Shown: piece after piece, positions 17,932 to 33,722 of the stretch
How the letters are laid out: each line of letters starts with the position of its first letter
How positions within the stretch are numbered: position 1 is the stretch's first letter
Assembly (NCBI GenBank): GCA_021791195.1
Contig: JAJYXB010000019.1
Span: 1 to 64,000 of the forward strand
Direction of reading: 5' to 3'
Length of the DNA stretch: 64,000 nucleotides
DNA from: Actinomycetes bacterium
Lineage (GTDB): Bacteria > Actinomycetota > Thermoleophilia > BMS3ABIN01
Notes under the pieces: generated by a model
What the model was told of the DNA's origin: nothing
Databases searched by the model: none
What the model saw: only the letters and a program-made list of their open reading frames with translations
Program-made: the position numbers and the translations under genes

Positions 17932-18222
17932 CTACCAGGCAGCCGCGTTGCTTTCCTCAACCAGATCGACAAAGCCCGAGTAGTCGATCTCCTTGACGCC
18001 GTCCACCAGCCGCTCGATGCCACGCAGCGCCACATCCTCCTTCAGGACGTAGACCTCGTGGCTGCTCATGATCTCCTTCATCCGCGCTTCGTGCGAGGAA
18101 CCGGCCAGAGCGCCGTAGATGCCATCCTCGTAAAGCAGGATCCGCGAACCGTCGGACGCATACCTGAGGCAATCCTCGAGGCTTTTGGACTCGAAAGGAG
18201 ATTTGTTGATCATGTGAAGCAT
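17932..18222 (-). CDS. dsrH: DsrH (TusB family) sulfur-relay subunit
   Basis: A 96-residue TusB/DsrH-family protein beginning MLHMINKSPFESKSLEDC, very close to DsrH of phototrophic sulfur oxidisers. The Cys at position 18 corresponds to the conserved DsrH cysteine (Cys20 in Allochromatium numbering). With DsrE and DsrF it should form a hexameric sulfurtransferase that passes persulfide sulfur to DsrC. The ATG has AAAGGAGG upstream. It is the last gene before the strong terminator. Confidence 0.93.
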   Translation of the reverse strand: MLHMINKSPFESKSLEDCLRYASDGSRILLYEDGIYGALAGSSHEARMKEIMSSHEVYVLKEDVALRGIERLVDGVKEIDYSGFVDLVEESNAAAW

Positions 18223-18270
18223 GGTCCTCCTTTGCTGTTTTCGTAAATTTAGCCGCCGCTGACGGCTGGC

Positions 18271-18657
18271 TTAAAACATCATGAAGTTGCGCTGCTCCAC
18301 CATCAACTGCTCGACCTTGCCGGCCTCGATGACCTCGGGCTGAATGATCAGATCCTCCAGCGTGAGGCCGCGTGACTCCAGCGAGGCGCCGTCGATGAAT
18401 ATCTTCTCGACGTCGTACACAGGCTCCAGCGCCTTGAAAGTCGGCGAGAAATCCTTGATGGTGGTGGCAGAGCTATCCATCCCCTTCTTAAGGGCGAGGA
18501 CGCCATCATCAATGAACAGGACGGTAAGATCCTGCTCGTAAGCGGCCGTCATCACCACGTTTTCCAGCCCCTCATAAGCATAGATACTGCCATATGGCGC
18601 TGTACGGAAAACAATCATGAGTTTTGCCGCACCTTCATTTTCCATTTCATCGTTCAA
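18271..18657 (-). CDS. dsrF: DsrF (TusC family) sulfur-relay subunit
   Basis: 128 residues with the TusC/DsrF signature KLMIVFRTAPYGSIYAYEGLE and LFIDDGVLALKKG. It starts at TTG 18657 with GAGGTG upstream; an ATG four codons in is an alternative. As is usual for DsrF it has no conserved catalytic cysteine in the core and is thought to be structural within the DsrEFH complex. Located between dsrE and dsrH in the canonical order. Confidence 0.93.
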   Translation of the reverse strand: MNDEMENEGAAKLMIVFRTAPYGSIYAYEGLENVVMTAAYEQDLTVLFIDDGVLALKKGMDSSATTIKDFSPTFKALEPVYDVEKIFIDGASLESRGLTLEDLIIQPEVIEAGKVEQLMVEQRNFMMF

Positions 18658-18675
18658 AGTCAGTCACCTCTTTCC

Positions 18676-19035
18676 TTAGGCCCTGAAAGTTACAAGCCGG
18701 TCGGCTTCGATCGCCAGATCAGTCAGCATGCCCAGGCCGCCGATCTTGAAATTCTCCGCGACGATATCCTCCACGATGCCGCGGCGCTTGGCGGCGGCGA
18801 CGCAGACGATATACTCGATGCCGTGCTCCTTTGAAAGCTCGGTCCAGCGCTCCTGGATGTGACGGTCATCCCGTTGCACATCCATCAGTTTTGTGGCATT
18901 AAGCACGCCGTCCTGATAAAAGAAAACGCGCGTGATCTCGTGTCCCTTGGCGATAGCAGCCTTGGCAAAATTGTACGCGCTGTCGGACGCTTCGTGCTGG
19001 TAGGGGCCTTCGAGTATCAAAATTCCGAATTTCAC
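18676..19035 (-). CDS. dsrE: DsrE (TusD family) sulfurtransferase subunit
   Basis: 119 residues from GTG 19035, preceded by AGGAAGGAG. It has the DsrE/TusD core (FGILILEGPYQHEASDSAYNFA; RVFFYQDGVLNA) and the catalytic cysteine in EYIVCVAAAKRRGI. Counting from the chosen start this is residue 78, the same number as the essential Cys78 of Allochromatium DsrE, which supports both start and function. The longer open frame upstream (to 19281) overlaps the dsrL stop and the promoter and is rejected. First gene of the dsrEFH unit. Confidence 0.95.
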   Translation of the reverse strand: MKFGILILEGPYQHEASDSAYNFAKAAIAKGHEITRVFFYQDGVLNATKLMDVQRDDRHIQERWTELSKEHGIEYIVCVAAAKRRGIVEDIVAENFKIGGLGMLTDLAIEADRLVTFRA

Positions 19036-19152
19036 AGTGTCTTCACTCCTTCCTGAAAAATAATTTTGGGCGCGGTCATGCGCCCGGAAGCCTGGCAGAG
19101 GCAAAAACTTTGGAAAGAATCCGCAGAATAACAGCCTCGCACCCCGCGCGCT

Positions 19153-19181
19153 ATCGTATATCCGGCGCGGGTTTCTGTCAA
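19153..19181 (-). promoter_or_regulatory. Sigma-A-like promoter of dsrEFH
   Basis: A perfect TTGACA (19181-19176) is 17 bases from TACGAT (19158-19153). It lies in the 164-base gap between the second dsrL and dsrE, so dsrEFH can be transcribed separately from the upstream dsrAB unit. Confidence 0.65.
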
Positions 19182-19199
19182 ATTGGAGCAGCGAAGGAA

Positions 19200-20921
19200 T
19201 CAGCTGATGCCGGCGCCCTGCATCCCCATCTCGATATAGCCGCAGGGGCAGATGTCGGCGCATACGTGGCAGCCGATGCATTTGGTGTAGTCGGTGAACA
19301 TGATCCGGCCCACTGGTTGGGACAGATCGCGGCTGATGGCATGCGTCGGGCAGTAGACGCGGCAGCGGTCGCAGGTGAAGCAGAGGCCGCAGCTCATGCA
19401 GCGGTAGGTCTCTTCCCTGGCCTGGTCCCCGGTCAGCGGCAGATTGACCTCGTCGAAGTTGCGGATGCGCTCCGCGATCGGCAGCTCCTGCTGCTTGTGG
19501 CGCGGCGCGGCGGCATAATAGCCCAGGCTGATGCGGCTGTGATCGATCGGCTTGGGCGCGTAGGGCTCCTTGTACTCGACGCCGTGGAGGTAGACGTCGA
19601 TGGCGCGCGCCGCTTTGCGTCCCCGGCCCACAGCCATGGTGGATACGCCAGGCATTAGTACATCGCCCCCGGCAAAAACGCCTTCGATCCCGGTCCGGCC
19701 GTAGCTGTCAGCGCGGACCCAGCTTCCTTCCGCCAGCCCCTCCAGACCGGTGAGATCCGCTTCCTGCCCGATGGCGGCAATGATGGTATCGGCTTCGATC
19801 TCGAACTCGGAGCCCTCGATCGGCAGCGGGCGGCGGCGGCCGCTACTGTCCGGCTCGCCCAGCTCCATGAGGATGCAGGTGAGCACCAGCCTGTAGGGAG
19901 CGCCCGCGGGCGCCGCGGCGATCTTCGCCGGCGCCGCCAGAAACGTAACCTTGATCCCCTCGTCGATCGCCCCTTGCACCTCGGAGGCCAGCGCCGGCAT
20001 CTCCACCTGCGTACGGCGGTAGATCAGGTCGACCTCCGGCCCCAGCCGCAGGCAGACACGGGCCACGTCCACGGCGGAATTGCCGCCGCCGATCACCAGC
20101 ACGCGCTTGCCCAGCTCGACGCCATCGCCGCAGTTGAGCGATTTGATCAGGTCGATGCCCGGGACCACCCCCGGGAGATCATCGCCCTCGACACCCATGC
20201 GGATGGATCGGTGCAGCCCGGCGGCCAGATAGACAGCGTCATGGCTGCTGCGCAGCTCATCCAGGGAGATGTCGCGGCCGATGCTCGTGTTTAACCGCAG
20301 ATCTACTCCCAGGTCTATGATCTTCTCAATCTCAGCGGCGAGCACATCGCGCGGCAGCCGGTAGGTGGGGATGCCCGCCCGCAGCATGCCGCCCGGCTCT
20401 GCCTCCGACTCGAAAACGGTTACCGGATAGCCGCGCCGCGCCAGCTGGTAGGCGCAGGAGAGCCCCGATGGGCCGGCGCCGATGACGGCCACGCGCCGGT
20501 CGCGCTTCTTTTCGGTGAGCATCCGCAGCCGGAAGCCCCGCCTGATGCCCTCATCCCCGATGTGGCGCTCCAGACTGTGGATGGCGATCGGCTCATCCTT
20601 GAAACCGCGGTTGCAGGCGTCCTCGCAAGGATGCGGGCAGATGCGGCCGTGAACCGCCGGGAAAGGATTCTTGTCGGTGAGGACGTGCCACGCCTGCTCC
20701 ACCGATTCCTCGTGACTGCGGCCGAATTGCAGGCTCTGGGCGATCGCCGTCAGGTAGCCGCGGGCGTCCTCGCTGCTGGGACAGGCCCCCTTGCAGGGAG
20801 CTTCCCGCCGGGTGTAGACCGGGCAGTCGAAATTGTCGTTGTCCTGGACCGGACAGGCCTCGGAAGGGTCCGGCGTCCTGACCCGCATCACCGCCTGACC
20901 CATGCTTTCCCTGGCGCTCAT
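19200..20921 (-). CDS. dsrL: DsrL-like NAD(P)H:acceptor flavoprotein with Fe-S domains, copy 2
   Basis: 573 residues of the GltD-like flavoprotein type: N-terminal Fe-S region (CKGACPSSEDARGYL; CPHPCEDACNRGF), FAD-binding VAVIGAGPSGLSCAYQL, NAD(P)H-binding VIGGGNSAVDVARV, then a C-terminal ferredoxin domain (CMSCGLCFTCDRCRVYCP and CIGCHVCADICPCGYIEMG). DsrL transfers electrons between NAD(P)H and DsrAB. It directly follows the second dsrA-dsrB pair (18 bases), so it is probably its dedicated partner. Clearly related to the copy ending at 23607 but diverged throughout. Confidence 0.9.
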   Translation of the reverse strand: MSARESMGQAVMRVRTPDPSEACPVQDNDNFDCPVYTRREAPCKGACPSSEDARGYLTAIAQSLQFGRSHEESVEQAWHVLTDKNPFPAVHGRICPHPCEDACNRGFKDEPIAIHSLERHIGDEGIRRGFRLRMLTEKKRDRRVAVIGAGPSGLSCAYQLARRGYPVTVFESEAEPGGMLRAGIPTYRLPRDVLAAEIEKIIDLGVDLRLNTSIGRDISLDELRSSHDAVYLAAGLHRSIRMGVEGDDLPGVVPGIDLIKSLNCGDGVELGKRVLVIGGGNSAVDVARVCLRLGPEVDLIYRRTQVEMPALASEVQGAIDEGIKVTFLAAPAKIAAAPAGAPYRLVLTCILMELGEPDSSGRRRPLPIEGSEFEIEADTIIAAIGQEADLTGLEGLAEGSWVRADSYGRTGIEGVFAGGDVLMPGVSTMAVGRGRKAARAIDVYLHGVEYKEPYAPKPIDHSRISLGYYAAAPRHKQQELPIAERIRNFDEVNLPLTGDQAREETYRCMSCGLCFTCDRCRVYCPTHAISRDLSQPVGRIMFTDYTKCIGCHVCADICPCGYIEMGMQGAGIS

Positions 20922-20939
20922 ATTATGCCGCCCCCGCCC

Positions 20940-22019
20940 TTAAAACCTGACATGCGAGGAGGCGTTGAGGGTGGTGCGCGACCAGCGGTACGTGTCGATG
21001 TGGTACTTGGTGAACTTGAAGCCGGTCTGCTCGAAGAAGTTCTTCCAGCCGATGCGCTCGATCCACTCGCCGACGCGCTCGAACTCGCGGGCGCCGCCCT
21101 TGTAGGCGTTCAGGATGGCGCTGACGGCCTCGCCGACCTCGGGCCAGCGCGGCGGGTTGTTCGGCAGCCCCCAGGTGGCCAGCTTCATGAAGGACGGGCC
21201 GGAGCGCGTGTTGGCCGATTTGCCGCCTACCCAGATCGACAGCGTGTCGGTGTCGCCGTCGCGGATCTCCAGCGCCGGGCACTGGGCATGGCAGGCGCCG
21301 CAGTACATGCACTTCTCCTCCACGACCTCCACGGTGTCGTGACCATTTACGCGGTCGGGGCGGACGGCAAGCACCGGACAGATTCCCACCACCTTGGGCA
21401 GCTCGCAGCGGTTGATCATGTCATGGTCAATCCTGGGCGGATGGTGATGCTGCAGGTTGACGGCGATGTCGGTCTGGCCGCCGCAGTTGATCGTGCAGCA
21501 AGAGGTCGAGAGCTTTACCCGCTGGGGAAAGTTCTCATGCGTGAACTCTTCGTAAAGGCGGTCCATCAGCGCCTTGACCACGCCGGCGGCGTCCGTCCCG
21601 GGAAGGTTGCAGTGCAGCCATCCCTGCGTATGGATGATGTTGTGCACTGAGCGGCCGGTGCCGCCGACGGGGAATCCCAGGGTCTGCTCGATATCGTCGA
21701 TCAGCGGCTGGATCTGCTCTTCCTGCTCTACCTGGAACTCGATGTTGTTGCGGCTGGTGAAACGCAGATATCCCTGGCAATGCCTGTCGGCGATGTCGCA
21801 AACCTTGCGCAGCAGCGGCGCGCTCATCATCCGCGGCGAACCGGCGCGCACGGTATAGAGCGAATCGCCGTCCTCGGACACATGCACGAACACGCCGGGC
21901 CTGATGTCGCGATGGTCCTTCCACTTGCCATAGTTGCGCACCATCGACGGATGCAGATACCTGGTGTAGTCAGGCGCTCCCTGGTCACGCGGCGCCAGCG
22001 GTTTTTTCTGATCGGCCAT
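20940..22019 (-). CDS. dsrB: Dissimilatory sulfite reductase beta subunit, copy 2
   Basis: 359 residues. Siroheme-[4Fe-4S] ligands are intact: QGWLHC and SCCTINCG. The ferredoxin insert KCMYCGACHAQCP follows ICPVLAVRP, and the DsrB C-terminus (NNPPRWPEV, GWKNFFEQTGFKFTKYH) is present. With DsrA it reduces sulfite to a DsrC-bound trisulfide. The siroheme-cysteine segment differs from the first copy (CTINCGGQTDIAV against CLNMCGAVHASDI), marking a distinct lineage, not a recent duplicate. Starts 2 bases after the dsrA stop with GGAGG upstream. Confidence 0.95.
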   Translation of the reverse strand: MADQKKPLAPRDQGAPDYTRYLHPSMVRNYGKWKDHRDIRPGVFVHVSEDGDSLYTVRAGSPRMMSAPLLRKVCDIADRHCQGYLRFTSRNNIEFQVEQEEQIQPLIDDIEQTLGFPVGGTGRSVHNIIHTQGWLHCNLPGTDAAGVVKALMDRLYEEFTHENFPQRVKLSTSCCTINCGGQTDIAVNLQHHHPPRIDHDMINRCELPKVVGICPVLAVRPDRVNGHDTVEVVEEKCMYCGACHAQCPALEIRDGDTDTLSIWVGGKSANTRSGPSFMKLATWGLPNNPPRWPEVGEAVSAILNAYKGGAREFERVGEWIERIGWKNFFEQTGFKFTKYHIDTYRWSRTTLNASSHVRF

Positions 22020-22021
22020 GC

Positions 22022-23314
22022 TCAGTCGCCTCCAAAGGGGATCTCGGTGACCTCGGGTTCACGCGGCAGCACGTTGGCCGCCTTTTGCGGCTCGCCCTCT
22101 AGCCGCGGCGCCGTGTATTCCTCAAACTTGATGTAGGGGTTGCTGCGCGGGTTGAGCACCATCTGCGGGTCCGGCTCGATGCCGACGCCATCGAGGAAAG
22201 TCCCCAGGCCGACGCGGTCGATGAACTCGCCAACGCGCTCATGGTCGTGCCCGTGCTCGCCCCAGAATTCCCAGATGCGCTCCACCAGATCAGCCAGGGC
22301 CTCGCGATCGGCGTCGGTCTTCATCTCCATGAAGGGCACCAGCATCGTGCTCACCATCTCACCGCTGCGGACAGTGCGCTTGCCGCCGATCAGCAGCGTC
22401 ACGCCGCGATCATTACCCGGCGCCAGCGCCGCGTGCATGACGTTGATGCAGTGCATGCAGCGGACGCAGTTGTGATTGTCGATCTCGATCTTCCTGCCGT
22501 GCAGGTGGATGCACCGGGTTGGGCAGCGGCTGGTGACGTTCTCGTTGACCCATTCCTCGCCGTGGCGATCGACGAAGTCGGCCACAGCCTGTTCGTCCAC
22601 CTGGATATCATCGCGCCAGGTGCCGATCACCGGCATGTCGGAGCGGGTCATCGCGTTGGCGCAGTCGTTGGCGCAGCCCGAGAGTTTGAACTTGTATTTG
22701 TAGGGAAACTCGGGCCGGTGCAGCTCGCCGATGAACCGCTTCGTGAGGAAGCTGGTGAGTTTGAGCGTGTCATAGCATGACATCTCGCAGCGGGCGGGAC
22801 CGACGCAGCAGGGGATCGTGCGCATGCCGTTGCCGGAGCCGCCGATATCCCAGCCCTGCTCCATCAGGGCCTCGGCGGCCGCGAACATCTTCTCATTGTC
22901 GAAGCCGAGCAGCAGGATGTCGCCGGTCATGCCATGCAGCTGCAGGATGCCGGCGCCGAATTCCTCGCTGGCGTCGGCCAGCTGACGCAAGGACTCGGTG
23001 TTGTAGACGAATGCGGACGGCTCGATCAGGCGGATGGTGTGAAACTGCGCCACATCCGGATACTTCTCGCCCAGGTCGGAGTAGCGGGCGATGACGCCGC
23101 CGCCATAGCCGGAAACGTTGAGGACGGTTCCCCGCCAGTAGTCCCAGCGGTTTTCGTAAGATTCTTCCAGCTGCTGAAGCAGCTGCGCCACCTGCGGCCG
23201 GCGGCTGGCCTGCTGCTTGAGGTCCTTGACGAAGCTGGGCCAGGGCCCTTCCTCCAGCTGGTCCAGCAGCGGCAGCTTCAGATCGGCAGACGTACTTTCT
23301 GAGTCATCCGGCAC
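22022..23314 (-). CDS. dsrA: Dissimilatory sulfite reductase alpha subunit, copy 2
   Basis: 430 residues from GTG 23314 (AAAGGGG upstream); a longer frame to 23404 lacks support. Catalytic cysteines are intact: CCVGPARCE and LSGCANDC for the siroheme-coupled cluster, CPTRC with NCVRCMHC for the ferredoxin cluster. Compared with the first copy it carries a C-terminal tail of about 30 residues (after EEYTAP) and many substitutions, for example in RLIEPSAFVYNTES. It forms a unit with dsrB and dsrL copies 2, downstream of a terminator. Family knowledge predicts an alpha2beta2 sulfite reductase; substrate bias or direction cannot be read from the sequence. Confidence 0.95.
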   Translation of the reverse strand: MPDDSESTSADLKLPLLDQLEEGPWPSFVKDLKQQASRRPQVAQLLQQLEESYENRWDYWRGTVLNVSGYGGGVIARYSDLGEKYPDVAQFHTIRLIEPSAFVYNTESLRQLADASEEFGAGILQLHGMTGDILLLGFDNEKMFAAAEALMEQGWDIGGSGNGMRTIPCCVGPARCEMSCYDTLKLTSFLTKRFIGELHRPEFPYKYKFKLSGCANDCANAMTRSDMPVIGTWRDDIQVDEQAVADFVDRHGEEWVNENVTSRCPTRCIHLHGRKIEIDNHNCVRCMHCINVMHAALAPGNDRGVTLLIGGKRTVRSGEMVSTMLVPFMEMKTDADREALADLVERIWEFWGEHGHDHERVGEFIDRVGLGTFLDGVGIEPDPQMVLNPRSNPYIKFEEYTAPRLEGEPQKAANVLPREPEVTEIPFGGD

Positions 23315-23517
23315 TGATTCCCCTTTCGTAATGTAGTCACGACGCCGGCGAATAGGTGCGATATCCTGACACCCGGGCTTAAAAAGAATGATATCCACCG
23401 GCAAGGCTTTTGAAACGGATATCGCCGCGGCGGCGCGGCTGGTACGAAAGACTTATTGAGTTTGCTTAATGTAGATGAATCAGTTCAGGAGCTGGTACAA
23501 AACGAATCTGATTTCGA

Positions 23518-23547
23518 AATTAGGATCGTTAGGAAAGCAACGTCCCC
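23518..23547. repeat. Solo 30-bp copy of the intergenic inverted-repeat arm
   Basis: A 30-base sequence ending AAAGCAACGTCCCC matches one arm of the inverted repeat at 55383-55476 with a single mismatch (T for A at position 8). It directly abuts the terminator after dsrL copy 1. The gap 23315-23606 otherwise holds no gene. Confidence 0.8.
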
Positions 23548-23577
23548 AAAAAGGGACGCGGCCGGAGGCCGCGTCCC
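23548..23577 (-). terminator. Intrinsic terminator between the two dsrAB units
   Basis: Minus strand: a perfect 11-bp stem (GGGACGCGGCC with GGCCGCGTCCC, 3-base loop) followed by TTTTT (23552-23548), 30 bases past the stop of dsrL copy 1. It separates the dsrM...dsrL unit from dsrA copy 2. Confidence 0.9.
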
Positions 23578-23606
23578 TGGGTCGCTCGCTATTATCGGCG
23601 CCGCGT

Positions 23607-25301
23607 CTAGCCCATGTTGATGTATCCGCAGGGGCATTCCTCGGCGCACTTGGAGCAGCCGACACAGGAGTCGAGGTAGAACTTGTAGAACTCGTGCTCG
23701 TGTGTGCGGTTCTCCGCCGGCACCTTCTTGATCGCGTTATACGAGCAGAAGGAATAGCAGTTCGAGCAGTCGAAGCACATGCCGCAGCTGAGGCAGCGCT
23801 TGGTCTCTTCCAGAGCAACCTCGTCCTGGAAGGTTGAGACAACCTCATCGAAACTGGTCTTGCGCTCTTCCGGCGACTTGGCCACCTTCTGGGCGCGGTC
23901 GGCCGGCTGATAGTAAGAGGCGGCCATCGCATCGAACTTGATGATCTTCGCCGGATAGACCTTCGGGATCTCCTCGCCACGGATGTGGTAGTCGATCGCC
24001 TCGGCGGCCTGACGGCCCAGGCCGACTGCCTCGGTCACCGTACCGAGATGGTTGGTGACGTCGCCGCCGGCGTAGACGCCTTCCTCAGAGGTCTGGCCGC
24101 TGGCCTCATCGACCGTGATCCAGCCCTTCTCGTCCTTGAAGGCCTCAATGCCGCCGAACTGCGGACCCTGGCCAATGGCCGGCAGGACCATGTCGGCGGG
24201 AATGACGAACTCGGAGCCATCAACGGGTTCCGGCCGCCGGCGCCCGCTCTCGTCGGGCTCGCCCAGCTCCATCTTGATGCACTTCAGGCCGGTGACCTTG
24301 CCGCCCTCGCGCACTACCTCCACGGGAGCCGCGAGGTATTCGATATGAATGCCCTCAGCCTCGGTATCCTCGATCTCCTCGGCCTCGGCCGGCATCTCGT
24401 CCCGGGTACGCCGGTAGACGATTTGCGGCTCAGCGCCCATCCTCAGCGACACGCGGGCCGCGTCGACAGCGCTGTTGCCGCCGCCGATGATCAGGATCTT
24501 CTTGCCCTTCACGTCAACGGCTTCGCCGGAGTTTACCCTGTTGAGGAACTCGACCGCGTTCTCCACGCCTTCGCCTTCCTCGCCGGGAATGCCGAGGTTC
24601 CAGCCCTCGTGCGCGCCGATGCCGAGAAAGACAGCTTCATAGTCCTTCTTGATGTCGTCGAGCGAGACGTCCGCGCCGACGCGGGTATCGTACTTGAACT
24701 CGACACCCAGCGCTTCCAGCGCCGCCACTTCGGCGTCCAGGATGTCCTCCGGCAGCCGGTAGCTGGGGATGCCGTAGCGGAGCATGCCGCCGGATTTGGG
24801 GAAGGCCTCGAAGACCGTCACCGGATAGCCGCGGCGAGCCAGCTGGAACGCGCAGGAGAGACCGGCGGGACCGGAACCGATGACTGCCACCTTCTCCGCG
24901 TGCGTCTCGTCAGAGAGCTTCTCGTGCGCCAGATTGTTGTTGATGCCGAAATCGCCGATGAAGCGCTCGATCTGGTTGATCGAGAGAGCCTCATCCTTGA
25001 ACTGCCGGTTGCAGTCCGTCTCGCAGAAATGCGGGCAGACACGGCCCAGCACCGCCGGGATGGGGTTGGTCTCGGTGAGCACCCGCCATGCCTTCTCGGT
25101 GGCCGCTGCCATATCGAGACCGTTGCCCTCGCCCTGCGCGATCGTCGTCAGGAAGCCACGGATGTCGTTGCTGCTGGGACACGCGTTCTGGCAGGGCGGA
25201 GTCTTGGCAACGTAGCTGGGCCTGAGGTGCGATCCCTCACGGCCGCGACTGTAAGTCGCCGCACCGATCTCCCGTTTTCTTGTTTTTAGTACTACCGCCA
25301 T
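23607..25301 (-). CDS. dsrL: DsrL-like NAD(P)H:acceptor flavoprotein with Fe-S domains, copy 1
   Basis: 564 residues from ATG 25301, preceded by AAAGGAG at 5 bases. Same layout as the second copy: Fe-S entry (CQNACPSSNDIRGF; CPHFCETDCNRQF), FAD motif VAVIGSGPAGLSCAFQL, NAD(P)H motif IIGGGNSAVDAARV, C-terminal ferredoxin part (CLSCGMCFDCSNCYSFC and CVGCSKCAEECPCGYINMG). DsrL-2 type enzymes of sulfite/sulfur reducers are thought to carry NAD(P)H electrons to DsrAB. It follows dsrA-dsrB-dsrD and ends the main unit just before a terminator. Assignment as DsrL rather than a glutamate-synthase small chain rests on context. Confidence 0.92.
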   Translation of the reverse strand: MAVVLKTRKREIGAATYSRGREGSHLRPSYVAKTPPCQNACPSSNDIRGFLTTIAQGEGNGLDMAAATEKAWRVLTETNPIPAVLGRVCPHFCETDCNRQFKDEALSINQIERFIGDFGINNNLAHEKLSDETHAEKVAVIGSGPAGLSCAFQLARRGYPVTVFEAFPKSGGMLRYGIPSYRLPEDILDAEVAALEALGVEFKYDTRVGADVSLDDIKKDYEAVFLGIGAHEGWNLGIPGEEGEGVENAVEFLNRVNSGEAVDVKGKKILIIGGGNSAVDAARVSLRMGAEPQIVYRRTRDEMPAEAEEIEDTEAEGIHIEYLAAPVEVVREGGKVTGLKCIKMELGEPDESGRRRPEPVDGSEFVIPADMVLPAIGQGPQFGGIEAFKDEKGWITVDEASGQTSEEGVYAGGDVTNHLGTVTEAVGLGRQAAEAIDYHIRGEEIPKVYPAKIIKFDAMAASYYQPADRAQKVAKSPEERKTSFDEVVSTFQDEVALEETKRCLSCGMCFDCSNCYSFCSYNAIKKVPAENRTHEHEFYKFYLDSCVGCSKCAEECPCGYINMG

Positions 25302-25400
25302 ATGTTCTCCTTTGGATCGCAGGCTTTGCCATGCCACCATTTTGACGCCGGCACGCAAATGCCGGATTCAGCAGGGCGCCGCCTGACGATGCCCTGTCGA

Positions 25401-25649
25401 TTACTGGTTTTCAGCAGCTTCCTTGTGCGGCAGTTCGATCGAGCTGCCGCCGAAGTAGCCGTAAACTGTGCGGCCGGAATCCATCAGCTGCTTGATGGCA
25501 GCCTTGACGTCGGCGCGCCCGATCTGGTCGCCATACTTCGCGGCCATGGCCTTTTGCAGGTCGCCGGCCTTGACCTTCTTCTGCCCGGCGTTCTCAGCCA
25601 CGATTGCATAGCAGTCTTCTGCCAGCTGGTCTACGGAAATATCCCCCAT
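25401..25649 (-). CDS. dsrD: DsrD
   Basis: An 82-residue protein with the winged-helix DsrD pattern, ending in YGYFGGSSIELPHKEAAENQ, which parallels the aromatic-SSG tail of Desulfovibrio DsrD. DsrD stimulates DsrAB sulfite reduction and is used as a marker of the reductive direction. It sits in its canonical place immediately after dsrB, 14 bases away. Sequence similarity to characterised DsrD is modest, so position carries part of the call. Confidence 0.85.
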   Translation of the reverse strand: MGDISVDQLAEDCYAIVAENAGQKKVKAGDLQKAMAAKYGDQIGRADVKAAIKQLMDSGRTVYGYFGGSSIELPHKEAAENQ

Positions 25650-25663
25650 CTGGGAACCTCCTC

Positions 25664-26740
25664 CTAGTATCTGTTTTGGACAGACCTTCTGTAGGTCGTG
25701 CCCGCGTGACGGAAGTCATCAAGATGATACTTGGTGAATTCGATGCCGGTCAGGTCGAAGAATTTGGGCCAACCGATGCGGTTGATCCACTCGCCCACGC
25801 GCTCGAACGGCTTGGCGTTGGCGGCGTAGACCTCGACGATCTGCTTGACGGTGCTGGTGACTTCCGGCCACCGCGGCGGATTGTTGGGGATGTACGGTAC
25901 AGCCAGCTTGGTGAACATCGGTTCTGACCGGGCGTTGGAGATCTTGCCTCCGACCCAGATGGAAACACCGTCATTCAGCGGGTCGGCCAGCGGCATCGCC
26001 GGACAGACCGTGAAGCAGTTGCCGCAGTACATGCACTTGTCTTCGTCGACCTTTACTGTCGTCTTGCCTTCGATCGAAGTCGGCCGGATGGCGTTGTTCG
26101 GGCAGGAAGCGACCGTGGTCGGAATCTCGCACAGGTTCGGCAGCGTTTTGTTGTCGATCCGCGGCGGGGTGCGGTGCAGGCCGAGGATGGCGATGTCGGA
26201 AGCGTGCACGGCGCCGCACATGTTCAGGCAGCAGGCCACGGCGACGCGCAGCTTGGCCGGCAGCTTCTCCGAAGTGAAGTACTCGGCCAGCTCGTCCATG
26301 ACCACCTTGACCAGACCAGAGGCGTCGGTTGCCGCCGAATGGCAGTGCACCCAGCCCTGGGTGTGGACGACGTTGGAGATGGCGTTGTTCGTGCCGCCTA
26401 CCAGGAAGCCCTTGTCCGTGATCTCTTTCTTGAGCGGCTCGATGTTGTCCTTGTTGGCCAGCAGGAACTCCACGTTGTTGCGGCTGGTGAAGCGGAAGTA
26501 GCCATCCGCGTACTTGTCGGCCAGGTCGCAGACCATGCGCAGGAAATTCGACGACACCAGGCGCGCCGAGGACATCCTGACGCTGAAGATGGTGCCGGCG
26601 GGACCCGTGTGGGCCAGCACGCCCGGAGCCAGCGACTCGTGGTACTTCCACTTGCCGAAGTTCTCCTTGATCATCGGATGCAGGAACTTCTCAAAATGTG
26701 GCGGTCCTATATCCGTTACCCTTTTAGCTTCTGTTGCCAT
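25664..26740 (-). CDS. dsrB: Dissimilatory sulfite reductase beta subunit, copy 1
   Basis: 358 residues with classical DsrB features: QGWVHCHSAATDASGLVK, siroheme/[4Fe-4S] ligands in ACCLNMCGAVHASDI, ferredoxin motif KCMYCGNCFTVCPA, and the C-terminal NNPPRWPEV and GWPKFFDLTGIEFTKYH. It looks more like the DsrB of ordinary sulfate reducers than copy 2. It pairs with dsrA copy 1 (65-base gap) and precedes dsrD. Confidence 0.97.
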   Translation of the reverse strand: MATEAKRVTDIGPPHFEKFLHPMIKENFGKWKYHESLAPGVLAHTGPAGTIFSVRMSSARLVSSNFLRMVCDLADKYADGYFRFTSRNNVEFLLANKDNIEPLKKEITDKGFLVGGTNNAISNVVHTQGWVHCHSAATDASGLVKVVMDELAEYFTSEKLPAKLRVAVACCLNMCGAVHASDIAILGLHRTPPRIDNKTLPNLCEIPTTVASCPNNAIRPTSIEGKTTVKVDEDKCMYCGNCFTVCPAMPLADPLNDGVSIWVGGKISNARSEPMFTKLAVPYIPNNPPRWPEVTSTVKQIVEVYAANAKPFERVGEWINRIGWPKFFDLTGIEFTKYHLDDFRHAGTTYRRSVQNRY

Positions 26741-26805
26741 TTATTTCCGACCTCCTATCGGGTTAATGATTTCCACGGGGACAAAATGCGTGTCCCTGCA
26801 CTTGC

Positions 26806-28014
26806 CTATTCCTCGCCCTCGCCCGCATCTTCGTCCGCAAAATACTCTTCGTAGAAGATGTAGGGGTTGTCTCTCGGAGCCTTGACCATCGTCGGCAGCG
26901 GCTCGAGGCCGACGCCTTCGAGGAAGGTAGCCAGGCTGACGCGCTCGATGAACTCGCCGATGCGCTCGCGAGCCATGCCGTGCTCATCCCAGAACTCCCA
27001 GATGCGCTCGATGAGGTCGTAGAGCCCGGCATAGTCGCCGTCCTTGATCTGCATGAACGGGATGATGCTCTGCGCGAACAGGGCGCCTTCGACGATCGGA
27101 GCCTTGGCGCCGATGTTGATGGCGAAGCCCTTCTCATCGCCGACGGACAGCGCCTTCGGCATGCGGTTGATGCAGTGCATGCACTTGACACAGTTGCTGT
27201 TGTCGATGCTGATCTCCTTGCCCTCCACCGAGATGCACTGGGTGGGGCACTTCTCAACTACGAACTCCTTCACGTTGAAGCCGTCGTCGATGTACTTGGC
27301 GAACTCTTCCTTGTCGACCTTGATGTCGTCTTTCCAGATGCCAATGACCGCCATGTCGGAACGGGCGATCGAGGCGGTGCAGTCATTCGGGCAGCCCGAC
27401 ATCTTGATCTTGAACTTGTAGTTGAACATCGGGCGGTGCAGCTCGTCCTGGTAGTTGTGGGTGAGCTGATAGGCCATCTCCATCGTGTCATAGCAGGCGT
27501 TCTCGCAACGCGCCGGACCGACGCAGTTGCTCGGCGTCCGGAGGTCGGAACCCGAACCGCCCAGATCCCAGCCCTTCTCGGTCAGTGCCTGGAAGGTCGG
27601 CTCCAGCTCCTCGGTGCGCGTCCCGAGCAGGACCATGTCACCGGTGGAGCCGTGCATGTTGTACAGGCCCGAGCCGTGGGCATCCCAGATGTCGATGATC
27701 TCCCGCATGGCGTCAGAGGTGTAGAACCAGCCGGAAGGCTGATTGACGCGCACCGTATGAAAATGGGAAACACCGGGGAACTCTTCCGGAAGCGCGGAGT
27801 AGCGCCCGATGACGCCGCCGCCATAACCCATGACGCCGACAAGGCCGCCGTGCTTCCAGTAACCGCGCTTGTCCTCGTAGGATTTCTCCAGCTGACGCAG
27901 AAGATCGCGCGGCATCTCCTTTGTCTCCGCCATGCTCTTGATGTCTGTGACGAAACTGGGCCAGGGACCCTTTTCCAGCTCGTCCAAGAGTGGAGTTTTT
28001 AACTCATCTGCCAT
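26806..28014 (-). CDS. dsrA: Dissimilatory sulfite reductase alpha subunit, copy 1
   Basis: 402 residues. Contains [11 protein letters not shown] near the N-terminus, substrate and siroheme-pocket cysteine motifs NCVGPARCE and MSGCPNDC, and a ferredoxin cluster (CPTQC plus NCVKCMHC). All ligands expected of a functional siroheme sulfite reductase are present. The ATG has AAAAAAGGAGG upstream. It follows the small dsrJ-like gene in the dsrMCKJABDL unit and is probably the main respiratory enzyme. Confidence 0.98.
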
Positions 28015-28141
28015 TTAATACTCCTCCTTTTTTAATTGCTGCTGCATTCGAGCGATCATTCAGACGGCACAAACAGCTGAATGTTCAACCGGGGGGCTGC
28101 CAAACACAGGATGACTTCGACCGGTCTGGTGTTGCCTGCCG

Positions 28142-28468
28142 CTACGACCCGATCGATGGCTTGATCCCGACGTAACTGTGACATCTGTCGCACAGCTGCG
28201 TCCTGTCATGGCATTTCAAACAGTTCTGCGTGCCCCCGTAAGACTGATTAATGAGTCCGATATGGACCATGTGATTTTGCATGATGTCGTTTGGCACCGG
28301 GATCGCTCCGGGCAGCTGGCGGGAGAGCAGGCCATACTGGTTCTGGGCGCTGCCGAGCTGGGGCAGCGGCGCCCCCGAAGACATGTTGCCGTTGATGGCG
28401 TTAATCGAGAACGGCAGCGTCAGGATGGCCAGGAAGATGATGAATGCGATAACTGCTCGTGTTTTCAT
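28142..28468 (-). CDS. dsrJ: Short, two-heme DsrJ-like periplasmic cytochrome c
   Basis: 108 residues: N-terminal membrane anchor or signal (VIAFIIFLAILTLPFSINA) and a C-terminal heme region with CLKCH and CDRCH. The arrangement NHM...NCLKCH...LCDRCHSYVGIKP follows the DsrJ family, where SLxxTCxxCH, FCDxCHxY and then a third CWxCH are expected. Here the protein stops 9 residues after the second motif, so the third heme site is absent. The ATG overlaps the dsrK stop by 4 bases, a tight coupling. Expected role: the periplasmic heme subunit of the Dsr membrane complex, but with two hemes. Confidence 0.88.
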   Translation of the reverse strand: MKTRAVIAFIIFLAILTLPFSINAINGNMSSGAPLPQLGSAQNQYGLLSRQLPGAIPVPNDIMQNHMVHIGLINQSYGGTQNCLKCHDRTQLCDRCHSYVGIKPSIGS

Positions 28469-30027
28469 TCTTTGGCCCCCAGTTCTATCGCCCTGCCGAC
28501 CAGCTGGTGCACGCCGCCGGCCACGGTCATGGGAATTCCATATTTTGGCAATACCTTGGTGAACTGCGCCTTGCAGATGGCGCAGATGAGCGCCATGAAG
28601 TTGACGCCGTCGCTTTCCATCACCGCGTGCAGCGCCTGCATCCTCGGCATGGCGCCGGCGACGCGGATCTCGAGGATCTCGTCCGTCAGCAGACCGCCGC
28701 CGCCGCCGCAGCAAAACGTCTTTTCCATCGTAGTGCTGGGATCCATGTCCACATACTTGTTGCATGAGGCCTTGATGAGTTCGCGCGGCATCGTAAACTG
28801 GCCGCCGGGACGGTCACCCATGCGCGAGCCGCGCGCAACGTTGCACGAATCATGGAAGGTTACGGTGAACTCGTCGTTGGCCGACTTGTCCAGCTTGATC
28901 GCGCCGCGCCTCACGAGGTCAAGTGTGAACTCGACGATGTGCTGCGGCGCCGGATAGCGCGGATCAAGCGTGTCAAACGGGCCAATAAGAGTGTTCCAGA
29001 AGGAGTAGGCAACCCTCCAGGCGTGCCCGCACTCGCCGACGACCAGCCGCTTGGGCTTGAGTTCGCCGATGGCGTTGCGGACCCTCGCGGCCACTTTTTC
29101 CAGCTGGGTGTAGCTGCCGATGAACATGCCGAAGTTGCCAGCCTCGGAAGCGGCCGTGCTCAAGGTCCAGCTGATGCCCGCCTGATGGAAGACTTTGGCG
29201 TAACCAATCAGGGACTCGATGTGAGGCGAAGCGAAGAAGTCAGCCGACGGCGTGACCAGCAGGACGTCGGCGCCTTCCTGGTCGAGCGGCAGCTTGACCG
29301 GAACACCGTCCTCTTCCTCGATGTCCTCTTCCGTGGACTCCAGCGTGGCGGCAAGCGCCTTGGGGTTCATGCCCAGATTGTTGCCGATCTCATGGACCTT
29401 GCCCAGGATCTCGTTGACATACTTCTGGCCGATGCCAATGCTGTCCATGATCTCGCGCGCCGCCATCGAGATCTCGGCGGTATCGATGCCATAGGGGCAG
29501 AACACCGAGCAGCGGCGGCACTGGGAGCACTGGTGAAAATAGGCATACCAGTCGCTGAGCAGGTTCAGGTCGAGCCGATGGGCTCCAGCCAGTTTGCCGA
29601 AAATCTTGCCCTCGGTGGTGAAATATTTCTTGTAAACCCGGCGCAGCAGCTCCGCGCGGGCGACCGGCATGTTGTTCGGGTCGTTGGAACCGATGAAGAA
29701 CTGGCACTTGTCGGTGCAGGAGCCGCACCGCACACAGATATCCAGATAAACCTGAAGCGACTTGTACTTCTCCAGCAGCTCTCCGAGCCGCTTAACCGCG
29801 GCTTCTTCCCAGTTATCCACCAAAGTCTCGGGGAAACCGACCTTGGCCTGGACCGCGGGCTTGGCCATGTGCGGCTTGATGGCGCTGGTGACGCCCTTGC
29901 GCCGGTAGCCGTCCTCAACCCGGGGAACGTTGATCTCCCCGATGAGTTCGGGCACCTTGAAATTTTTATTGATTACCGATTCGGCTACTGTTTCAACAGC
30001 TGTTTTCTCAGCAGGTGGCTCTGCCAT
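28465..30027 (-). CDS. dsrK: DsrK, heterodisulfide-reductase-like Fe-S subunit
   Basis: 520 residues. Two [4Fe-4S] motifs (CVRCGSCTDKC about residue 98 and CSQCRRCSVFCPYGID about 167) are followed by HdrD-like CCG-type domains: FHDSCNVARG and FCCGGGGG, with a further ICAICK. DsrK is the cytoplasmic catalytic subunit of the DsrMKJOP complex, thought to reduce the DsrC trisulfide formed by DsrAB. It lies downstream of dsrC, separated by a strong hairpin, and is coupled to the dsrJ-like gene. Confidence 0.96.
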   Translation of the reverse strand: MAEPPAEKTAVETVAESVINKNFKVPELIGEINVPRVEDGYRRKGVTSAIKPHMAKPAVQAKVGFPETLVDNWEEAAVKRLGELLEKYKSLQVYLDICVRCGSCTDKCQFFIGSNDPNNMPVARAELLRRVYKKYFTTEGKIFGKLAGAHRLDLNLLSDWYAYFHQCSQCRRCSVFCPYGIDTAEISMAAREIMDSIGIGQKYVNEILGKVHEIGNNLGMNPKALAATLESTEEDIEEEDGVPVKLPLDQEGADVLLVTPSADFFASPHIESLIGYAKVFHQAGISWTLSTAASEAGNFGMFIGSYTQLEKVAARVRNAIGELKPKRLVVGECGHAWRVAYSFWNTLIGPFDTLDPRYPAPQHIVEFTLDLVRRGAIKLDKSANDEFTVTFHDSCNVARGSRMGDRPGGQFTMPRELIKASCNKYVDMDPSTTMEKTFCCGGGGGLLTDEILEIRVAGAMPRMQALHAVMESDGVNFMALICAICKAQFTKVLPKYGIPMTVAGGVHQLVGRAIELGAKE

Positions 30028-30062
30028 TGCATGCTATCCTTTCAGCCCAAGGATCGGATAAA

Positions 30063-30096
30063 GCCGCCGGCCGGCCGGAAAAACCCGGCCGGCGGC
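30063..30096 (-). other. Strong intercistronic hairpin between dsrC and dsrK
   Basis: A perfect 11-bp all-GC stem (30063-30073 with 30086-30096, 12-base loop) lies 14 bases past the dsrC stop and is followed on the minus strand by only TTT. It may be a partial terminator or a 3'-end stabiliser that raises dsrC mRNA above dsrK. Confidence 0.7.
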
Positions 30097-30110
30097 GGCG
30101 ATGGTTCGGA

Positions 30111-30443
30111 TTAGACGCAACCAGTCGGCTTCGGCAGACCGGCGATCTTGCAAGCCTGCAGCGCCGGGCCGGCCGGGTACAGGTTGTAGAGGTAAGCACT
30201 GTTCCCCTTGTCGGGGCCGAACATCTTCTTCATCTCCTTGATGAGGATCTTGATGGCCGGAGCAATGCTGTACTCCTGATAGTAATTGCGGAGAAAGTCG
30301 ACGACCTCCCAGTGGGCATCCGTCATCTCCACGCCCTCCATCTCGGCGATGTGGCCGGCAACTTCCCGGTTCCAAGAGTCGAGATCGAGCAGATAACCGT
30401 CGTCGTCCGTCTCATACGTCTTTCCTTCAAATTCGAAACTCAT
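30111..30443 (-). CDS. dsrC: DsrC sulfur-carrier protein
   Basis: 110 residues. The C-terminal arm has both redox cysteines spaced C-x10-C (QACKIAGLPKPTGCV), with the penultimate Cys, which distinguishes true DsrC from single-cysteine TusE and RspA-type relatives. DsrC accepts the sulfur intermediate from DsrAB as a trisulfide and delivers it to DsrMK; DsrEFH is its other known partner. Here it lies between dsrM and dsrK, an unusual place, bounded by a good ribosome site (GGAGG) and a strong 3' hairpin. Confidence 0.97.
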   Translation of the reverse strand: MSFEFEGKTYETDDDGYLLDLDSWNREVAGHIAEMEGVEMTDAHWEVVDFLRNYYQEYSIAPAIKILIKEMKKMFGPDKGNSAYLYNLYPAGPALQACKIAGLPKPTGCV

Positions 30444-30563
30444 CTTGTTTCCTCCTTGTGGTTTTTGACCGAGGTTTCGCCGTTGTCTTAACCTCGCGAG
30501 TTTCCTTCCCCAGCTTCGAATAAGCTTCGGGTCACAACCTGGTTTGTGCCTTCCCGCCCTTCG

Positions 30564-31361
30564 CTAGCCTTCAGATGGCTCTTCCGCCGCCGCAACCGGA
30601 GCCGCCGCAGGCGCCGCAGCCGCGGCCGTCACCTGCTTCGCCCATGGATTGACCCACCGCTTCTCACGCGGGTTGTCGATCTGGTTGCGGGTCGGACTGT
30701 AGAAGACGCCCCCTGCGTGCATCAGCTTGCTGAACGGGAAGTAGATCAGCAGCAGCATCACCAGGCTGAAGTGAATCAAAAACAGCTTGTGTTCGGGAAC
30801 AGAAGCCGGATGAAACGTCACCAGCCCGGCGACAAAGTTTTTCACTTCGGGAACCGAAGGCCGCACGTGGCCGTTTTCCCAGAAGCGGGAGAGCAGCCCG
30901 GTGCCGCCGATGCCGATCAGCAGCAGCAGCAGCGCGTAGTCACTCGCCAGCGATATATAAAAATGCCGGTCGATGGCCAGGCGCAGGATCAGCAGAAATA
31001 TCAGCGCCGCGACGAGGATAAAACCGGAATAGACATCAAACTTTACCAGCGTGCTCAGAATCGAGGAGGTCGGAGCGATGAAAAAACGGAGGTGCTTCAG
31101 CAAAACGAAGAGGAGGCCCAGATGGAATAAATATCCTCCGAGCCACAGCACCTTGTTGCCGCGGAAAAGGCTTTTGAAGACAAAGACTTCCTGAAGATAG
31201 CGCACGCCCACGCCCGGTGCCGACACCGGCGCCGGCGTCTGGGGGATCTTCAGCGGAGCGGGAGTAGAACCGTACTTCCAGACTTTCGCCATGAACCCGA
31301 CCAGGAAAATCGCAATCGACACGTAGAAAAACAGACCGAAGATCAAAGTGAGACCGCTCAT
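30564..31361 (-). CDS. dsrM: DsrM, NarI-like membrane cytochrome b subunit
   Basis: 265 residues with about five membrane segments and paired histidines suited to heme b (YLFHLGLLFVLLKHLRFF; LFLIHFSLVMLLL...KLMHAGG). The end PTRNQIDNPREKRWVNPWA is typical of DsrM, followed by an alanine-rich tail. It is shorter than most DsrM (about 330). DsrM oxidises quinol and passes electrons to DsrK. First gene after two tandem promoters, so it likely starts the main dsr mRNA. Confidence 0.93.
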   Translation of the reverse strand: MSGLTLIFGLFFYVSIAIFLVGFMAKVWKYGSTPAPLKIPQTPAPVSAPGVGVRYLQEVFVFKSLFRGNKVLWLGGYLFHLGLLFVLLKHLRFFIAPTSSILSTLVKFDVYSGFILVAALIFLLILRLAIDRHFYISLASDYALLLLLIGIGGTGLLSRFWENGHVRPSVPEVKNFVAGLVTFHPASVPEHKLFLIHFSLVMLLLIYFPFSKLMHAGGVFYSPTRNQIDNPREKRWVNPWAKQVTAAAAAPAAAPVAAAEEPSEG

Positions 31362-31635: not shown

Positions 31636-32283
31636 TCATTTTGCCTGCAAATCCCCGGAAACCTGGCGGGCCAGATCGCCGATGGCAACGCTTTCCAGGG
31701 CGCGGTTGCGATACAGCCGGAAGCTTCCACGATCCGCCTCCATCGCCTCCACGCGCTGCCCGATGCCCGGAAACCGGGCGCGGGACGCGGCCCAAAGCGC
31801 CATCCCCCTGACCCCGGGCTCGGCCGCGGCAAGGCTGGCGGTGATCACCGCCCGCGCATCGCGGGGCAGGCTCAGGCCGGCCTCCGCCAGCCGGCCCATC
31901 GCCCAGAGCACGCCGGGAAGAAACGGCGGCTCTTCGGAGAGGGACATGATTATCGGCGGCAGGTCGCTGAACTGGCCGGGGCTTTGGGCAACTACCTCCG
32001 CCAGCATCTCCGGTGCGCTCCAGCCGATGGAGCCGGACTCCTCGGTAACCGACCACAGCAGCCGGCGGACGATGTCGCGCGCCATGCCGGGATTGTCGGC
32101 GGCAATGGTGGCCACGGCCAGGCCCATCACCTCGATCGCCCGCCAGGCGATGACGTTCTCCTTGTCGTAAGTTAGCGCCATGATCGCGCCGAAGACGCGC
32201 TTGTTGCCCGGCGCCATGGCAGCGATGCGTTCCAGATCGTCCTCGATGAGAGCGTCTTTGATCTCTTTCCGCAAAGTTGCCAC
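31636..32283 (-). CDS. HEAT-repeat-like protein (resembles the DVU0298 family)
   Basis: About 215 residues from GTG 32283, which overlaps the dsrN stop (TAGTG) and has AAGGAGG 10 bases upstream. It is all-helical with HEAT-like repeats: phrases such as AWRAIEVMGLAVA, GVLWAMGRLAE and VRGMALWAASRA recur. From memory it resembles the HEAT-like DVU0298 type found widely in sulfate reducers. Function unknown; translational coupling to the siroheme-amidase gene and its place next to dsrM suggest a role in Dsr biogenesis. Confidence 0.8.
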   Translation of the reverse strand: MATLRKEIKDALIEDDLERIAAMAPGNKRVFGAIMALTYDKENVIAWRAIEVMGLAVATIAADNPGMARDIVRRLLWSVTEESGSIGWSAPEMLAEVVAQSPGQFSDLPPIIMSLSEEPPFLPGVLWAMGRLAEAGLSLPRDARAVITASLAAAEPGVRGMALWAASRARFPGIGQRVEAMEADRGSFRLYRNRALESVAIGDLARQVSGDLQAK

Positions 32284-33722
32284 TAAAAAGCCGCCTCCTT
32301 GACGAATCTGACAAAACCTTCGGCCCAACCCGGCGAACCCAGCGCGTGCAGGTGAGCGTACGAGGCAATGACGTTGCGGTAGACGATGCCGTCGTGCTGG
32401 CGGTCCAGGCCGGTTCCCCGCACGACATCGTAGGCGAAGCCGACGTCTCCCATGCCGGTGATCTCGGAATAGTGGAACTCATGGCCGCGGATGGTCAGGC
32501 CGGGGGCAAACCAGCCGCCGGCCCCAGTCGCGCGCAGCTTGACGTAACCGTGGCCCCGGGGCTTCTCGTGCATGACCGTATCGCAGGGAAGCGCTCCGGC
32601 CATTTCGCGGGACCTGTCTTTCCAGGACATCCGCCGCGACAGATACATCATCCCGCCGCATTCGGCGTAGACCGGCATGCCGGCCTGGACCGCTTCCCTG
32701 ACGGCGCTGCGCATGGAAGTATTGGCCTCCAGCTCGTCCATGAATACCTCCGGGAAACCGCCACCGATGTACAGGCCGTTGAGGCCGGCGGGCAGCGCCG
32801 CGTCGCTGACGGGACTGAACGGCACCAGCTCGGCGCCGGCAGCTTCGAGCGCTTCCAGGTTCTCGGCATAGTAAAAATTAAACGCCCGGTCGCGCGCCAC
32901 GCCCAGTCGCACTGAGGGTTCCACCCCGGCCACGGCGCCGGATTCCTCACCGCCGGCGAGCGGTGGCGCCGCGGCGGCGATGGCGCGGACGCGCTCCAGA
33001 TCGACGCTGTCAGCGATGATCTGCCTGATCTGGTCGATGACGTCGGCCGGCGCCAGCGATTCCCGCGCCGGCTGCAGGCCCAGATGGCGCATGATGATGC
33101 CCATCTCCGGCCGGCGGCGGACAGCGCCGAGCACTTTGATGTCGGTATAGCGTTCGATGACCGCGCGCAGTTTTTCCTCGTGCCGGGGGCCAGAAACCTT
33201 GTTGAGGACCACGCCGGCGATGTCGATGTCCGGCTCGAAGGCGGTGAACCCCTGGAGCAGCGGCGCTACCGAGCGGGTCATGTTGCGCGTGTCGACGATG
33301 AGGATGACCGGCGCGTCCAGCGTGCGCGCCATGTCGGCGGTGCTGCCGCGGCCCTCCACCTCGATGCTGTCGTAGAGCCCCATGTTGCCCTCGACCAGCG
33401 CCAGCCCGGCGCCGGCGCCGTTGCGGACAAATGAGCCGCGGATGTTCTCTTCGCCCATCATGAAAAGATCGAGGTTGCGGCACTCACGGCCGGCGGCCGC
33501 GGTCAACCACATGGGATCTATGAAATCGGGGCCTTTCTTGAACGGCTGGACTGCCACGCCGGATGCAGCCAGCGCGGCGCACAGGCCGATGCTCAGCGTC
33601 GTTTTGCCGGAGCTGCGGTGGGGAGCCGAGACGACAAGCCGGGGGATAGCCATGCCGCCGGAAGCAGACGGCGCCTCTGGCCCGCCACGCGCCTGTACGG
33701 TTCTGTCACCTTTTGCGGCCAT
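32283..33722 (-). CDS. dsrN: DsrN-type cobyrinate/siroheme a,c-diamide synthase
   Basis: 479 residues of the CbiA/CobB family: N-terminal P-loop (VVSAPHRSSGKTTLSIGL), KKGPDFIDPMWL, then a C-terminal glutamine amidotransferase-type domain with the nucleophile Cys in YAECGGMMYL and a late FHYSEI. In dsr clusters this family (DsrN) amidates siroheme to siroamide, the DsrAB prosthetic group; in other genomes it amidates cobyrinate. Location immediately upstream of the dsr genes favours DsrN. A promoter ends 6 bases before the ATG and there is no ribosome site, pointing to a leaderless message. Confidence 0.92.
   Translation of the reverse strand: MAAKGDRTVQARGGPEAPSASGGMAIPRLVVSAPHRSSGKTTLSIGLCAALAASGVAVQPFKKGPDFIDPMWLTAAAGRECRNLDLFMMGEENIRGSFVRNGAGAGLALVEGNMGLYDSIEVEGRGSTADMARTLDAPVILIVDTRNMTRSVAPLLQGFTAFEPDIDIAGVVLNKVSGPRHEEKLRAVIERYTDIKVLGAVRRRPEMGIIMRHLGLQPARESLAPADVIDQIRQIIADSVDLERVRAIAAAAPPLAGGEESGAVAGVEPSVRLGVARDRAFNFYYAENLEALEAAGAELVPFSPVSDAALPAGLNGLYIGGGFPEVFMDELEANTSMRSAVREAVQAGMPVYAECGGMMYLSRRMSWKDRSREMAGALPCDTVMHEKPRGHGYVKLRATGAGGWFAPGLTIRGHEFHYSEITGMGDVGFAYDVVRGTGLDRQHDGIVYRNVIASYAHLHALGSPGWAEGFVRFVKEAAF

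Follow-up and report, generated by a model that had tools for sequence, protein, structure and literature searches.

What does a DsrJ cytochrome with only two heme sites do in a dsr cluster that has no dsrO and dsrP? The question is raised by a 64,000-nucleotide stretch (hereafter the window; part of contig C26) from the assembly GCA_021791195.1 of an Actinomycetes bacterium, a genome of 2.15 Mb in 27 contigs that is 97.5% complete. Among DsrK sequences, the closest come from uncultured Actinobacteria that bear the labels Thermoleophilia, Gaiellales or Actinomycetes. The window carries on its minus strand, in this order, a dsrN-like gene, a DVU0298-family gene, dsrM, dsrC, dsrK, dsrJ, dsrA1, dsrB1, dsrD, dsrL1, dsrA2, dsrB2, dsrL2, dsrE, dsrF and dsrH (Table 1), and DsrK, DsrM and DsrC look intact. 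Judging from sequence, we consider it probable (about 0.7) that the locus encodes a genuine, selected and reduced membrane complex of DsrMK with a membrane-anchored two-heme DsrJ, lacking DsrO and DsrP, in which J would be the wire of DsrM and the Cys- and third-heme-bearing part of ordinary DsrJ would belong with DsrOP.

The open reading frame listed for dsrJ (28142-28765, 207 amino acids) was over-long. The true start is the ATG at 28468, overlapping the dsrK stop, and the protein of 108 amino acids consists of an N-terminal hydrophobic helix (residues 2-25), CLKCH, CDRCH and a short tail, YVGIKPSIGS, before the stop. It was identified as a DsrJ orthologue by its position after dsrK and by the alignment of its N-terminal anchor and its first two heme sites. 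An AlphaFold2 model (mean predicted local distance difference test score, pLDDT, 76.8; predicted template modelling score 0.46) was firm only in the N-terminal helix, with a pLDDT of 92-94 over residues 1-20. Three heme-binding sites, as in the DsrJ triheme cytochrome, were not found in this protein, which has two CxxCH only; no further CxxCH or CXnCH occurs in the three forward frames across the gene end and the gap 28015-28141. In an alignment of 40 J sequences, H66 was invariant, M63 was near-invariant and both CxxCH were kept, and the two-heme proteins lacked three features jointly: the Cys region, the R-x-x-x-V-R-x-G linker that leads up to heme site 1, and the third site. No Cys stands at the column of the upstream cysteine, which we take to be the ligand of the His/Cys heme of DsrJ, in any J of the actinobacterial locus types A and B (see below) or of Nitrospirota. 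A Cys flagged in L006 and its copies proved to be the cysteine of a lineage-specific insert, outside the conserved column. The preliminary description, which had read CLKCH and CDRCH with neither a third site nor a first-motif Cys, was thus borne out. It had named a third CxxCH at the same position in relatives as the sign of a local frameshift here; the site was absent in all close relatives. With three frames empty and many relatives alike, a frameshift or assembly error was rejected as the cause of the two-heme form.

The curated DsrJ model NF038038 (cut-off 100) gave the window's J only 31.6 bits, matching its last stretch alone; further J proteins with two or four hemes scored 25.8-41.3 bits or did not match at all. 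The cut-off was also missed by the three-heme proteins of L021 (87.1 bits) and L011 (71.5 bits), and was passed by the canonical one of L092 (185.1 bits). Since the model misses two- and four-heme J, surveys may undercount DsrJ. PF14537 was also tried as a DsrJ finder and matched only other multiheme cytochromes.

Our comparison with relatives drew on the best 80 DsrK loci in GTDB species genomes, among which all actinobacterial loci had a J with two CxxCH directly 3' of dsrK. Type A loci (the window, L003, L004, L006 and L010) have the window's arrangement as far as each contig extends, and type B loci (L005, L007 and L008) consist of dsrM-K-J alone, adjoined by neither dsrC nor dsrAB; two of the genomes with type B (DBS2-5.bin27 and SURF_19) carry type C as well. 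Type C (L009, L011-L016) reads N-M-C-K-J-O-P-A-B-D-L, and its J retains the upstream Cys and a third site that is widened to CX6CH or CX9CH, not CxxCH (e.g., CFDKTGGCH). The two-heme J lay directly 3' of dsrK in all type A and B loci (L003-L008, L010, L115-L122, L129). Furthermore, such a DsrK was found in 17 of the 19 genomes of the window's family, and every locus with a readable J was of type A/B or C; the two-heme form is common in this actinobacterial family. Among the loci L003-L082, 73 had enough downstream sequence for a count of J form against dsrO (L013 and L019, near contig ends, were excluded). An adjoining dsrO was present in 61/61 loci whose J combines a third site (CxxCH, CX6CH or CX9CH) with the upstream Cys, and in 0/12 of those whose J lacks them. 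The form of J therefore goes with the presence of DsrOP, a correlation that suggests a functional tie of the lost part to DsrOP. Two side observations concern these locus types. A lone dsrM-K-J without dsrC or dsrAB also occurs at L115 and L117-L119, in genomes with a full dsrMKJOP cluster, and the widened third site was seen in actinobacterial DsrJ of full DsrMKJOP clusters at L009:11491-11892, L011:11578-11973, L012-L016 and others.

dsrO and dsrP are absent from the cluster, as first described, and were not found elsewhere in the genome. A search beyond the cluster for them and for a longer dsrJ, as the preliminary description had proposed, returned only a paralogous NrfCD pair. There is no second DsrK over the cut-off, so the genome has no second dsrMK locus able to hold a longer dsrJ. 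Its sole NrfD (C13:82153-83028) scored 156.6 bits with the DsrP profile and is neighboured by an NrfC-like protein, a molybdopterin oxidoreductase and 12-heme and 7-heme cytochromes (L086:7939-14212; G000 contig C13). Over whole genomes, the same profile gave 665-696 bits in G412, G413 and G419, which have a true DsrP in full complexes, and no more than 153-161 bits in seven genomes of type A (G000, G381, G347, G067, G302, G404 and G405); G412 and G413 carry a like-scoring NrfD paralogue in addition to the real DsrP. AprA is present, indicating that a sulfate/sulfite pathway exists, and a cytochrome c assembly protein and multiheme cytochromes are encoded as well. The contig with aprA also holds, at L087:2302-10327 (G000 contig C25), genes that we named by eye: two radical-SAM-like proteins, a lipoate-ligase-like protein and an FAD protein beside an HdrD-like protein with a membrane N-terminus and HdrB/HdrC-like proteins.

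Could DsrOP be present and have been missed, through an assembly gap or through replacement by the NrfCD-like pair (C13:81436-83028)? The genome is not fully complete and is split into contigs, parts of the pair share 43% identity with DsrO and 30% with DsrP, and cable bacteria hold dsrTMKJ apart from a distant dsrOhPh-tetraheme locus (PMC13047784). We regard this as very improbable, however, because the absence was identical in all seven type A genomes searched, and the paralogue adjoins a molybdopterin oxidoreductase and occurs also in relatives with a real DsrP. There is likewise little to recommend a J that stopped working when OP were lost and is now decaying. J does evolve faster than DsrK (ratio of nonsynonymous to synonymous substitution rates, dN/dS, about 0.2 versus 0.06-0.08 for the same pairs) and varies in its middle part, but its dN/dS of 0.07-0.23 is well under 1, indicating purifying selection. 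Both heme sites are invariant in every copy, the start overlap with dsrK is kept in all type A and B loci, and Nitrospirota did not lose the two-heme unit but duplicated it.

This second phylum bears on the remaining alternative. Nitrospirota loci with an oxidative-type DsrK carry either a two-heme, lipoprotein-like J (L017, L018, L022, L024, L031, L173, L174, L176 and L184) or a four-heme J (L172, L175 and L177-L183), the latter being a tandem copy of the two-heme unit (internal alignment of four; Z 13-34 versus shuffles). The four-heme lipoproteins (L172:3084-3725, L175:3003-3527, L177:2765-3292 and those of L178-L183) were seen downstream of dsrC-M-K. Neither dsrO nor dsrP was seen beside the two- and four-heme loci; those with a reductive-type DsrK (L137-L166) have an ordinary J followed nearly always by dsrO within the stretch examined. 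Separately, in Nitrospirota that have the two- or four-heme J, a locus with a tetraheme cytochrome, a DsrO-like and an NrfD-like protein resembles the dsrOhPh-tetraheme locus of cable bacteria (PMC13047784). The window's cluster had been described as an intermediate between DsrMK-only and full DsrMKJOP complexes, which holds for subunit composition and fails for history. In the final DsrK tree (an earlier one had included the long branches L112 and L113), the actinobacteria with a two-heme J formed a clade (99/99) nested within the OP-bearing actinobacterial clade to which type C belongs (100/99, at two levels). The reduction is therefore secondary in the window's actinobacterial clade, and there is no intermediate there. 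A single clade of all two-heme rows was rejected in the same tree (approximately unbiased [AU] test, p = 1.06e-5), and with it a shared origin of the Nitrospirota and actinobacterial forms. That DsrMK recruited a two-heme J first, with OP and the third heme added later, is on the whole unlikely. It agrees with a quick tree, in which the oxidative-type DsrK clade has the Nitrospirota two- and four-heme branches as a basal grade, and with the basal placement there of lineages with only oxidative-type dsrMK (PMC10504309). However, besides the nesting of the window's clade, the reductive outgroup already has the Cys, the third CxxCH and dsrO, so that the two-heme state is most simply a loss, and a single Nitrospirota clade was not rejected (AU p 0.37). 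For Nitrospirota one loss, several losses or an old two-heme state are possible, and it is only for this separate grade that an intermediate is a possible reading.

In the reduced complex that we favour, DsrM and DsrK would continue to pass electrons between menaquinol and the trisulfide of DsrC, and the two-heme J would act as a membrane-anchored wire moving electrons between DsrM and the outer face, where multiheme cytochromes such as those at C13 are possible partners. Candidates for the distal ligands of the two hemes are His66 and Met63. In ordinary DsrJ, the Cys-ligated/third-heme part might act together with the quinone module DsrOP, or in sulfur chemistry; that the Cys-ligated heme is missing here argues that this complex can do without such chemistry and that the lost part goes functionally with DsrOP, in which case it would be dispensable after OP loss. 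More tentatively, and at somewhat less than even odds, DsrJ in general may comprise two separable parts, a two-heme wire of DsrMK and a Cys/third-heme part of DsrOP, the second deleted with OP in two phyla and the first doubled in some Nitrospirota. This would make DsrMKJ a widespread, under-annotated class in lineages that may have been counted as DsrMK-only. Several points weigh against the reduced complex as we have drawn it. The evidence base is genome sequences, mostly metagenome-assembled, and the losses of OP and of the third heme may both stem from some other change, with no direct contact implied. It is conceivable that the complex is still served by the paralogous NrfD module at C13. 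Sequence queries of the PDB with J and DsrK did not find a DsrMKJOP structure. In Nitrospirota the absence of OP is less firm, for the reductive-type DsrP there scores only 87-119 bits with the profile, like other NrfD, and in several genomes there is a tetraheme/O-like/P-like locus at a distance (L189, L190 and L192-L195).

Compared with DsrMKJOP of Desulfovibrio and Allochromatium, the window shares DsrM and DsrK orthologues (DsrM scoring below its cut-off), a DsrC with two C-terminal cysteines, an operon with dsrAB, and a J in that operon with two heme sites and an N-terminal anchor. In the window, by contrast, DsrO and DsrP are absent, and J has no third site, no Cys and no linker ahead of heme site 1. 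DsrMK-only systems (archaea, some Clostridia and Deltaproteobacteria), whose evolution has been treated with that of DsrMKJOP and of lineages with only oxidative-type dsrMK (PMC10504309), likewise have no DsrOP. However, those systems have no DsrJ, whereas the window has a conserved cytochrome J, and its DsrK is nested among MKJOP-bearing relatives and not in a basal MK-only clade such as the one described in PMC10504309. Cable bacteria also keep dsrMKJ together in an operon without dsrOP (PMC13047784), and a DsrMKJ complex has been drawn as a model for them (PMC13293266). In contrast to the window, their OP homologues lie at a distant locus with a tetraheme cytochrome, and the available parts of these papers report no two-heme J. 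Finally, the actinobacterial mixed clusters ACT_02 and ACT_11 (our L010 and L003; PMC9326234) and the Gaiellales genome SURF_19 (source of L007 and L011; PMC7596348) are of the same lineage and combine two dsrAB types, dsrL and dsrEFH. SURF_19 has a full MKJOP cluster and a separate type B dsrMKJ. Neither paper, in its accessible text, comments on how dsrJ is built or on dsrOP being absent. What is already known is thus DsrMKJ apart from OP (cable bacteria) and tandem dsrAB (close relatives). A two-heme J was not found reported: a search of the open-access literature, with subscription papers outside its scope, gave no description of a two- or four-heme (diheme or truncated) DsrJ. DsrJ is essential for the oxidation of stored sulfur in Allochromatium (PMC4213376), and its rare Cys-ligated heme, stated to be His/Cys-ligated with reference to Grein 2010, has been proposed to do sulfur chemistry (PMC9562282). 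The joint loss of Cys, third heme and DsrOP in separate lineages makes the role of DsrJ directly testable, as it yields predictions on the partner that each heme faces and on J being able to work without its unusual heme. Its recurrence in a second phylum hints at which part of the cytochrome serves which partner.

Table 1. Features of the dsr cluster in the window (positions in the window)
Feature	Position	Strand	Evidence and remarks
dsrN-like cobyrinate-type a,c-diamide synthase	32283-33722	-	TIGR00379 468.7 bits; 5' of dsrM in type A and C relatives
DVU0298-family protein, within operon	31636-32328	-	NF045662 151.8 bits
dsrM, 265 amino acids	30564-31361	-	NF038037 177.9 bits (below cut-off 300); PF02665
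dsrC	30111-30443	-	PF04358 148.7 bits; TIGR03342 157.9 bits; C-terminal CKIAGLPKPTGCV, both cysteines present
dsrK, 520 amino acids	28465-30027	-	NF045796 546.7 bits (above cut-off 400); sole DsrK over cut-off in the genome
dsrJ, two-heme variant, 108 amino acids	28142-28468	-	Start overlaps dsrK stop; N-terminal helix; no third heme site
First heme site CLKCH, J residues 83-87	28208-28222	-	C83, C86 and H87 invariant in 40-sequence alignment
Second heme site CDRCH, J residues 93-97	28178-28192	-	C93, C96 and H97 invariant in 40-sequence alignment
dsrA copy 1	26806-28014	-	TIGR02064 555 bits; groups with actinobacterial, Desantisbacteria and Nitrospirota A1
dsrB copy 1	25664-26740	-	TIGR02066 489.5 bits
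dsrD	25401-25649	-	By position and 61-76% conservation in relatives; no family match
dsrL copy 1	23607-25313	-	NF009410 614 bits; DsrL-like domain order
dsrA copy 2, start uncertain (TTG as listed)	22022-23404	-	TIGR02064 482.7 bits; own clade, far from A1
dsrB copy 2	20940-22019	-	TIGR02066 453 bits
dsrL copy 2	19200-20921	-	NF009410 596.9 bits
dsrE, listed start over-long	18676-19281	-	TIGR03012/TIGR03010 match over cut-off for E and F
dsrF	18271-18657	-	TIGR03012/TIGR03010 match over cut-off for E and F
dsrH-like	17932-18222	-	By position and homology to relatives

Among the other genes, dsrD has syntenic homologues in L004, L006, L010-L012 and L014-L016. Selenocysteine in DsrK, raised by TGA flags, was rejected: in the case checked (L101) the profile merely overran the stop. 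The region 17932-28014 holds a tandem pair of complete dsrAB sets, mutually distant, with two dsrL and dsrEFH, and such two-type tandem dsrAB with dsrEFH have been reported in the close relatives ACT_02 and ACT_11 (PMC9326234). The first dsrA copy is of the reductive type according to what that paper gives for relatives. In a quick DsrA tree, A1 of the window grouped with its counterparts in L003, L004 and L016, the last a type C locus; the A1 of L006 and L010, both type A, fell elsewhere. This grouping differs from that of DsrK and hints that dsrAB were exchanged between cluster types.

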